Origin: Parabacteroides acidifaciens
GTDB taxonomy: Bacteria; Bacteroidota; Bacteroidia; Bacteroidales; Tannerellaceae
Reading direction: 5' to 3'
Length of the DNA stretch: 64,000 nucleotides
Assembly (NCBI RefSeq): GCF_003363715.1
Contig: NZ_QREV01000006.1
Coordinates: 1 to 64,000 of the forward strand
Part shown: piece by piece, positions 7,070-55,384 of the stretch
Layout of the letters: every line of letters starts with the position of its first letter
How positions within the stretch are numbered: the stretch's first letter is position 1
Notes under the pieces: generated by a model
What the model was told of the DNA's origin: nothing
Seen by the model: the letters and a program-made list of their open reading frames with translations, nothing else
The model's database searches: none
Program-made: the position numbers and the translations under genes

Positions 7070-7169
7070 CAATCCTTGTCCGACCCGGGTCGGACAGCTG
7101 TTCGACGAGGGTGGGACAGCTGTCCGACGGAGGTCAAACAACTGTTCGACCCGGGTCGAACAAGGATTG
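7070..7169. repeat. 22-nt tandem array of palindromes
   Basis: Four units start at 7079, 7101, 7123 and 7145, an exact 22-base period. The pattern is TYCGAC-N3-GGTnnnACA followed by gctg-like spacers. The outer units are near-perfect palindromes (CCGACCCGGGTCGG and TCGACCCGGGTCGA). The array is framed by CAATCCTTGT (7070-7079) and ACAAGGATTG (7160-7169), so the whole block has overall dyad symmetry. It lies between the two divergent promoters of the efflux/regulator locus. It could be an operator cluster or a large hairpin; the binding partner is not known. Confidence 0.8.
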
Positions 7170-32337: not shown

Positions 32338-32366
32338 GTTTCCGATATAAAAAAGAATTTTTACAA

Positions 32367-32571
32367 CAAGAAACGCCGTTTCCTGGTACGAAAAACAAAA
32401 TTTGCGACCAGCGGAGGCGTTTCTTGCTGTAAATTTTGTTTTTTGAAGCCAGAAACAGCGTTTCCGGGTGTAAAAAAATCATTTTGTATCAAGCGGAACC
32501 TCTTCTTGAACAAAAAATCACCGTTCGCAACAAGAAACAACGTTTCTTGAAACAAAAAAAACATTTTGATA
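32367..32571 (+). repeat. 41-nt tandem array A (five units)
   Basis: Units start at 32367, 32408, 32449, 32490 and 32531, exactly 41 bases apart. Units 1, 3 and 5 carry a palindromic core (GAAACGCCGTTTC, GAAACAGCGTTTC, GAAACAACGTTTC) and units 2 and 4 a diverged form. Between cores lie A/T-rich stretches with runs of A and T. The array fills the gap between susD and the downstream GH2 gene, on the susD transcript if read-through occurs. A second array with the same period but other sequence lies at 54.3 kb. Confidence 0.85.
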
Positions 32572-54030: not shown

Positions 54031-54305
54031 ATGTTTACACCCGCAATGACAAATAAAGAGATTCGTAACGAAGCGCTGCAGGATTACCTGGAGCTGAAAA
54101 CACGAAAACATTCCTGGATCGGACAACCGATCAAAACCGTCCGGATTATGACGAATATATACAGACACAAATCAAATCGTTGGAAAAACTTGAAAAAGCG
54201 GTCGCAATGTATGAAGAAAACCAAAAATGTATATCTGATTTGTACAAATCGGATACACTTTTAGAACTGAATCTTCCCGAGCCTCCTAAATGTCACAAAA
54301 AATAG
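54031..54305 (+). pseudogene. Small gene split by a single-base frameshift
   Basis: The ATG frame reads MFTPAMTNKEIRNEALQDYL, then ELKTRK, and becomes implausible after the AAAA run near 54107. From there the frame that needs one extra A continues with normal composition (FLDRTTDQNRPDYDEYIQTQ, IKSLEKLEKAVAMYEENQKC, ending LELNLPEPPKCHKK) to TAG at 54303-54305. Joined, the product would be about 91 residues, charged and helical. I do not recognise the family. A TACCTTTG -7 element lies at 53988-53995. One-base loss, sequencing error and ribosomal slippage on A-AAA are the options. Confidence 0.55.
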
Positions 54306-54313
54306 CTAAAAAG

Positions 54314-54550
54314 CTTTCCGGAAGTTTCCGAAAACATAGAAAATGATTTTTTAAGTCTCCGGAAGTTTCCGAAAGGTCTAAAAATCATTTTTTAAAATCG
54401 CGGAACTTTCCGAAAACTCAAAAAATCACTTTTTAACTCGTCGGAAACTCCCGAAAGAGAGAAAAACTATTTTTTAACTCGTCGGAAACTCACGACATCT
54501 TAAAAAATAATTTTTTGACTTAGCGGGAACTTCCGAAAAAACGATTATTT
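54314..54550 (+). repeat. 41-nt tandem array B (six units)
   Basis: The core GGAAGTTTCC or a variant (GGAACTTTCC, GGAAACTCCC, GGAAACTCAC, GGGAACTTCC) starts at 54320, 54361, 54402, 54443, 54484 and 54525, exactly 41 bases apart. Most cores extend to a dyad of the form CGGAA-N2-TTCCG. The spacers are A/T-rich and mostly end in ATTTTTTAA. The array occupies the whole gap between the frameshifted small gene and the DUF6261-like gene. Confidence 0.88.
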
Positions 54551-54574: not shown

Positions 54575-55384
54575 ATGAAACAGATTAATCAGAAATTTGA
54601 TCTTTCACGCCCTCGTAACGGCGAACATTACCAGTTCCATACCGATATCCTCGATATCCTCAGTTCAGCTTTCGTTACCACACATGGCATTGTAACCCTG
54701 CGTGATACTTATAAGGAATTGTTCGAAATAGAGAATGAATGCTATCTGCGCAACAGGAATTACATGGAAACACCGGAAGTAAAAGCCGCCGACAAAAAAC
54801 GCGACGAGCTTTTCCTCTACATTGCACAAACGATTGAAACTAACATCCATTGTCCGGTCAAGTCAAAAGAGGAAGCTGCCACCCGGCTGTATTTTTATCT
54901 TACTCCTTATCGAAATGCACCGCGCAAAAGCTATGCGGAAAAGACTGCAGAAGTGAAAGATTTTGCAGAAAAGATGCAAGAAGGCGATATAGAAGAAGAC
55001 ATCGAAACGCTGGGCCTGACGAACGACATCGTCGAACTCGATAATGCAAATAAAGCTTTCAACACGATCTACAACAAACGTTCGAAGGAGAGCCTTGCAC
55101 GTACGATTTCGGATAACATGAAGTCGATCCGCCCGAAGGTGGACGCTGCTTACAAAGAGCTGACATCTGCCGTCAACTCCCTTTATCAGGTTAATACCTT
55201 GGTGACAAAAAACAGTACTTACGGAGCATCTCTCGGTACAGCCATAGACGAGGTGAACGCCGTCATCCTTCGCTTGCAAGAGACGCTTTCACGCGCCGGC
55301 GTCGGCCCGAAACCCAACTTCACCTTTGTCGAGAAACTGGAACCGACCGTTAATACACCGGACGACCGACCGGGAATATTGTAA
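54575..55384 (+). CDS. DUF6261-like protein
   Basis: A 269-residue, mostly helical protein with no signal peptide and no membrane segment. It opens with the segments FDLSRPRNGEHYQFHTDILDIL and VTLRDTYKELFEIENECYL. Later parts include AATRLYFYLTPYRNAPRKSYAEKTAEVKDF and NALRLQE-like helices (here NAVILRLQETLSR). I take it for a DUF6261 member, a family found mainly in Bacteroidales with no known role; this name is from memory. It follows array B directly and is closed by a strong terminator. Confidence 0.7.
   Translation: MKQINQKFDLSRPRNGEHYQFHTDILDILSSAFVTTHGIVTLRDTYKELFEIENECYLRNRNYMETPEVKAADKKRDELFLYIAQTIETNIHCPVKSKEEAATRLYFYLTPYRNAPRKSYAEKTAEVKDFAEKMQEGDIEEDIETLGLTNDIVELDNANKAFNTIYNKRSKESLARTISDNMKSIRPKVDAAYKELTSAVNSLYQVNTLVTKNSTYGASLGTAIDEVNAVILRLQETLSRAGVGPKPNFTFVEKLEPTVNTPDDRPGIL

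Follow-up and report, generated by a model that had tools for sequence, protein, structure and literature searches.

A 41-bp palindromic array upstream of a DUF6261 gene in Parabacteroides acidifaciens: a putative private binding-site array

The window analysed here, a whole stretch of 64,000 nucleotides from Parabacteroides acidifaciens, contains a tandem array that we call array B, whose neighbours are genes for a sulfatase, a DUF6261 protein and a peptidase (Table 1). Immediately ahead of array B is a short reading frame (54031-54305) that appears to be frameshifted and is composed of two overlapping frames, 54031-54264 and 54180-54305, which points to a sequencing error or a decayed gene. 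The window also holds a weaker array, array A, and an array of a second class with a shorter unit. Separately, the minus strand at 1795-1840 matches the Acido-Lenti-1 RNA (RF01687) with 55 bits, above the gathering score.

Table 1. Features of the window and the evidence or remark attached to each.
Feature	Position	Strand	Evidence or remark
22-bp dyad array (TGTTCGACCCGGGTCGGACAGC), second class	7077..7163	+	Family common to the HU-HIG upstream array at G000:C68:93269 and several other genome sites
Array A, orphan, 41/82 bp, dyad CAAGAAAC-nnn-GTTTCTTG, between SusD gene and GH2 gene	32358..32568	+	Periodicity survey
Array B, six 41-bp units, CGGAAnnTTCCG-type dyad and A/T dyad 20.5 bp away	54317..54540	+	Periodicity, dyad column shuffle
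Leader, array B to start codon	54541..54574	+	About 35 bp; DUF6261 arrays typically stop 12-150 bp before the start
DUF6261 gene, 269 aa, product proposed to bind array B	54575..55384	+	PF19775 E=3.4e-33; AlphaFold all-helical
Codons 1-15, N-terminal arm, exchanged along with the array among relatives and proposed to determine specificity	54575..54619	+	Close-pair comparison, AlphaFold

A sequence-only reading of this stretch had claimed that array B consists of six units of exactly 41 bases, each with a CGGAA-N2-TTCCG core, separated by an A/T spacer. The six units held. The self-match of array B is 0.65 at lag 41, 0.64 at lag 82 and 0.59 at lag 123, against 0.4-0.48 at neighbouring lags, and lag 41 at this site is the top periodicity among lags 15-120 across the whole window, with a score of 75, whereas 200 mononucleotide shuffles reached no more than 13.6. 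The core also held in five units, being perfect in three and carrying one mismatch in two, with a worse match in the unit at 54483. The spacer had to be modified, as the A/T stretch is itself a dyad (AAAATnATTTT), present in every unit and centred half a period from the first. Symmetry about both axes was significant by column shuffling (p=0.007 for the first and p=0.003 for the second). The same reading had stated that arrays A and B have a common period and different sequences, which was also borne out, with array A the weaker of the two (match of 0.545 at lag 82 and 0.51 at lag 41, survey score of 40) and not detected by TRF. Since array A has no DUF6261 neighbour and matches none of the three DUF6261 arrays of its own genome, it counts as an orphan member of this class.

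A CRISPR array was considered for array B and rejected, given that the whole unit recurs at 65-73% identity without unique spacers and that no cas genes are found among its flanking neighbours. Array B has a homologue elsewhere in the genome, at C59:57371-57704, which is longer (eight units), 75% identical and flanked by genes for a TonB-receptor-like protein and an MFS protein.

The protein encoded downstream of array B scores 115 bits against PF19775, for which the curated cut-off is 27, and so meets Pfam membership. Its AlphaFold model, with a mean pLDDT of 94.6, begins with an ordered non-helical arm (residues 1-14), continues through ten helices, the last of which ends at residue 240, and finishes in a loose tail. 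No fold could be assigned because the best Foldseek matches among the PDB and viral models had an E of about 0.2-0.3 and a TM of at most about 0.35, and a sequence search of solved structures gave no match. No recognisable DNA-binding motif was found in the protein, NCBIfam, PADLOC and PHROGs returned weak, chance-level matches only, and there was no transposase signature, PF19775 being the sole match in the profile searches. The literature searched held no relevant paper on DUF6261 function. The family was detected in 29 of 39 genomes of the genus (up to 37 copies), in 48 of 67 genomes of the taxonomic family (at least 47 copies listed in one) and in six of 297 genomes of the phylum, a patchy distribution of 0-55 gene copies per genome. 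It was absent from the phage records and viral contigs searched. Two records labelled as plasmids, NZ_OY725757.1 and NZ_OY725748.1, were the only ones of that kind to encode it; both come from one assembly, P. distasonis TSDC17.2-1.1, and look like pieces of chromosome, in the case of NZ_OY725757.1 because it carries a ribosomal protein gene and other housekeeping genes.

DUF6261 genes are linked to arrays of the 41 type. A first set comprised 60 distinct genes, of which 52 were preceded by an array with a period of 40-43 or 80-83, and a single one had an array of any period downstream. Among all 115 genes with enough upstream sequence, 98 had an upstream array of period 40-43 or a multiple, compared to six with a downstream one. 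No such array was detected for the other 17, some of which have short degenerate ones. All three DUF6261 genes of the genome under study are preceded by an array (C101, 41 bp; C79, 42 bp; C134, 42 bp), and arrays there accompany 2/2 DUF6261 genes as opposed to 10/808 other genes (Fisher, p=2e-4). The corresponding counts are 10/14 versus 97/601 in a second genome, G358 (p=9e-6), and 20/21 versus 16/272 in a third, G016 (p=3e-20), the windows of G016 having been picked around DUF6261 genes, which those of the other two were not. The link recurs in P. distasonis, P. gordonii, Prevotellaceae, Prolixibacteraceae and other Bacteroidota assemblies, and the linked arrays differ in sequence except between close relatives. 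The pairing of a DUF6261 gene with a private array that keeps the same unit length and has its own palindrome appears not to have been described before; that the protein binds the array is an inference, as there are no binding data. Two side observations concern individual loci: a long inverted repeat (cccgttcccgcgcttgacgcgggatcgc and its reverse complement) lies upstream of the C79 gene (L005, 341-450), and a pair of orthologous arrays from two species (L246 and L094) differ in unit number and show concerted divergence inside each array.

The sequence-only reading had also proposed that some process fixes the unit length, and had named as its refutation a survey showing many different periods with no excess at 41. 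This outcome was checked by genome survey and did not occur. Across 1.1 of the 5.1 Mb of the genome under study, periods were almost all 21/22/44 or 41/42/82. The 800 kb read of G358 gave about 120-130 arrays of period 40-43 or two to three times that, approximately one per 6 kb, together with 11 arrays at period 21/22 and a scatter of other periods; the G016 survey covered 0.39 Mb, and 200 kb of E. coli K-12 contained a single array, of period 98. The fixed period is therefore shown, and the proposal is supported, with DUF6261 as the element linked to the arrays of 40-43 bp. G358 itself stands out: its single contig of 3.01 Mb carries 55 DUF6261 genes, and its intergenic dyad arrays are extremely dense.

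The same arrangement is found at a second, unrelated protein family. Across the genus, 38 of 41 HU-DUF4469 genes have arrays of period 22-24, or twice that, and 31 of these arrays are downstream, mostly just past the stop codon. The two families also have a domain in common, since the C-terminus of some G016 DUF6261 proteins is a DUF4469 Ig-like domain (three over the cut-off). DUF4469 also occurs on about 25 other G016 reading frames, most of about 250 aa, whose N-terminal half we take to be of the HU DNA-binding type on the basis of established knowledge and the HU-HIG matches in the genome under study, without a profile search. In that genome, the HU-HIG genes C68:93269 and C87:17750 are preceded by 22-bp arrays whose sequences recur in dispersed arrays. 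A PF18291 search found six HU-HIG genes there, of which only two or three are accompanied by a 22-bp array, and an HMM search with HU-DUF4469 proteins of the sampled parts of this genome and of G358 found two genes only, both in this genome and none in G358. Two families, two periods and two preferred sides indicate that unit length follows the neighbouring protein family. Of the two processes suggested by the sequence-only reading, a protein lattice thus fits far better than a copying mechanism, and is supported by the gene linkage, albeit that the lattice itself is inferred. As a separate observation, near-identical 22-bp arrays (ACAGTTGTGACATG...) occur in the genome at L064 19806-19889 and L068 19636-19718, perhaps inside duplicated mobile DNA.

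How a given protein would be matched to its array is suggested by close relatives. In 18 pairs of genes with a body identity of at least 62%, which are related and non-independent, array similarity correlated with identity over residues 1-14 (rho 0.61, p=0.007; partial 0.60) but not with identity over the protein body (rho 0.12; partial 0.00). Furthermore, in three near-identical gene pairs (97-100% over residues 15-250) the array differs along with the first ~15 codons. The nucleotides of L246 and L091 are 99-100% identical from codon 16 on and 47-60% identical in codons 6-15, and their arrays differ; those of L161 and L082 match at 96-100% from codon 16 on and at 40% in codons 6-10; the arrays are unrelated, and further upstream, past the array, identity returns to 95% over 837 bp. 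L135 and L134 also show a sharp step at the gene start, with a less uniform remainder (63-100% by block) and with the upstream sequence of L135 cut by a contig end. A further pair, L144/L139, was left out as unreliable owing to mismatched coordinates. Array, leader and N-terminal arm thus appear to move as one block. This result rests on few close pairs, since a scan of all protein columns against array similarity in all pairs of 98 arrays was not significant, and it is possible that the exchanged N-terminus is merely a hitchhiker on a recombination tract.

Within a genome, each repeat family has a single DUF6261 gene. When 152 G358 arrays were clustered, with duplicates from recently copied loci merged before counting, no two DUF6261-linked arrays fell in the same repeat family, compared to 5.1, 3.6 and 2.6 edges expected at three thresholds (P=0.009, 0.03 and 0.07); the exclusion is shown at the first two thresholds and falls short at the last, which is the strictest. 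Edges between DUF6261-linked and other arrays numbered 57, 36 and 25 at the same thresholds. Arrays related to those of DUF6261 genes therefore exist in trans, and dispersed palindromes with the sequence of a partner gene's array, a criterion taken from the REP/RAYT system, are found both in these links and in the C59 homologue of array B. In G358 the arrays not linked to DUF6261 lie between co-directional (75), divergent (28) and convergent (27) genes, without promoter bias. Most G358 arrays, like array A, have no identified partner gene, these genomes having been read in part only.

The dyads are a general property of the arrays. Column shuffling found significant symmetry in 43 of 53 arrays, and in 24 arrays a second axis half a period away. 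At variable dyad pairs, 524 of 675 cells are Watson-Crick, compared to 485 +/- 5.5 in shuffles, and paired changes within arrays produced 25 extra pair types compared to 12.6 +/- 2.5. Since units share ancestry, which the shuffle controls ignore, these margins are optimistic. Among dyad mismatches, G.U (39) and A.C (46) are about equal, without a wobble excess, as would be expected for double-stranded DNA and not for transcribed hairpins, which suggests that the arrays are DNA rather than RNA sites.

Based on these observations, we consider it more likely than not that array B serves the DUF6261 protein encoded downstream as a private array of binding sites, on which that protein would form a regular nucleoprotein lattice; binding, dimerisation, lattice and role are all inferred. 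The DNA helix repeats about every 10.5 bp, and dimeric proteins bind palindromes. In our model, a DUF6261 dimer would read the palindrome through its N-terminal arm, and units of 40-43 bp, or four helical turns, would place every dyad on one face of the DNA, such that many dimers could pack side by side into a regular filament, with the A/T dyads between sites easing DNA bending. The unit length would then correspond to the protein's footprint, a reason why many sequences keep to a single period. The protein would also bind, in trans, arrays of its family at other chromosomal sites (for array B, the one at C59), creating an addressable, self-regulating device for chromosome organisation; this biological role is the least certain step. 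The case for the model includes the same arrangement at HU-type proteins and the DUF4469 domain that they have in common with some DUF6261 proteins.

The alternative that survives best is that the array is an operator only, through which DUF6261 represses or tunes its own promoter, with the multiplicity of sites buffering its level and no chromosome-wide role. This remains possible. In its favour, arrays lie upstream rather than downstream of DUF6261 genes (98 compared to 6), typically stop 12-150 bp before the start, and at several loci (for example, L121, L114 and L106) are followed by a promoter-like TAnnTTTG box ahead of the start codon. However, related arrays occur in trans, in G358 they are found equally on 5' and 3' sides and also between convergent genes, and HU-DUF4469 arrays are mostly downstream of their gene. 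We consider it unlikely that the arrays are REP-like selfish repeats, in which DUF6261 would help its own palindrome array to multiply or disperse, with the orphans as daughter copies. The many dispersed copies, the single gene per family, the private sequences and the patchy distribution resemble REP/RAYT (PMC2817692, PMC8266576), but DUF6261 has no transposase signature, is all-helical without a match to a solved fold, and REPs do not form tandem arrays with a fixed period. Less likely still is a role in RNA, whereby a chain of hairpins in the transcript would control stability, termination or translation. The arrays do lie in leaders or between genes and their dyads could fold as hairpins; however, neither criterion of a structured RNA family is fulfilled, as array B has no Rfam match and the dyads across arrays show no G.U preference, several palindromes are loopless (for example, CCAGCATGCTGG and TTTGCACCGnCGGTGCAAA), and arrays also lie between convergent and divergent genes. 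Finally, neutral slippage minisatellites with a length near 41 by chance, although consistent with units that expand, contract and evolve in concert (L246 versus L094), are all but excluded by the gene linkage, by a period that depends on the neighbouring protein family (41 versus 23), by the kept dyads and by the lone period-98 array in the E. coli sample.

Returning to the private-array model, DUF6261, a family without a described function, gains a concrete and testable partner in its own upstream array, and the unit length of a tandem DNA array becomes predictable from the adjacent protein family. If the model is true, it would provide many naturally orthogonal protein-palindrome pairs and a code linking an N-terminal arm of ~14 residues to a palindrome of 16-20 bp, and would explain minisatellites in Bacteroidales of the gut, perhaps among them the BrickBuilt repeats, which have so far lacked an explanation. 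A bolder reading is that orthogonal systems of protein-DNA addresses make up a large class in Bacteroidales, in which each paralogue (DUF6261 at 41-42 bp, HU-DUF4469 at 22-24 bp) would have a private palindrome array in cis and daughters in trans, with specificity residing in an exchangeable cassette of array and N-terminal arm, and up to 55 DUF6261 genes per genome acting in parallel to shape the chromosome. The present evidence leaves us slightly more inclined to doubt this reading than to accept it.

The arrangement recalls several known systems. ParB-parS, MatP-matS and iteron arrays place a protein on chromosomal palindromes or repeats, in many cases close to the gene that encodes it. In contrast to the arrays described here, they use one conserved site per system and not many private sequences at a fixed period, and none of their domains was found in DUF6261. 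The REP/RAYT (TnpA_REP) system similarly consists of dispersed extragenic palindromes with one gene flanked by and matched to each family (PMC2817692, PMC3116915, PMC8266576). However, the DUF6261 system has no Y1 (HUH) transposase and instead an all-helical protein of unknown fold, its arrays are tandem and of fixed period whereas REPs are single or paired palindromes, and the DUF6261 N-terminus is exchanged along with the array. In the absence of a transposase, it is not a member of REP/RAYT. The HU-HIG and HU-DUF4469 proteins (PF18291, PF14734) are likewise rich in paralogues with their own dyad array nearby and have DUF4469 in common with some DUF6261 proteins, but differ in their HU-type DNA-binding domain, their unit of 22-24 bp and an array that is mostly downstream. 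The BrickBuilt minisatellite/MITE of Porphyromonas gingivalis, with a 23-nt unit, many intergenic tandem loci and predicted stem-loops (PMC4596501), is also an intergenic tandem array of Bacteroidales; unlike the DUF6261 arrays, it has a single homogeneous sequence bounded by a leader and a tail, and its unit of 23 is not met by array B at 41. BrickBuilt is not known to have been assigned a protein partner. Its unit equals that of the HU-DUF4469 class, and BrickBuilt_14 adjoins a PF00216 (HU-type) gene (Table 1 of PMC4596501). The place of BrickBuilt is probably in the 22-24 class and not in the 41 class, which is no more than a lead.
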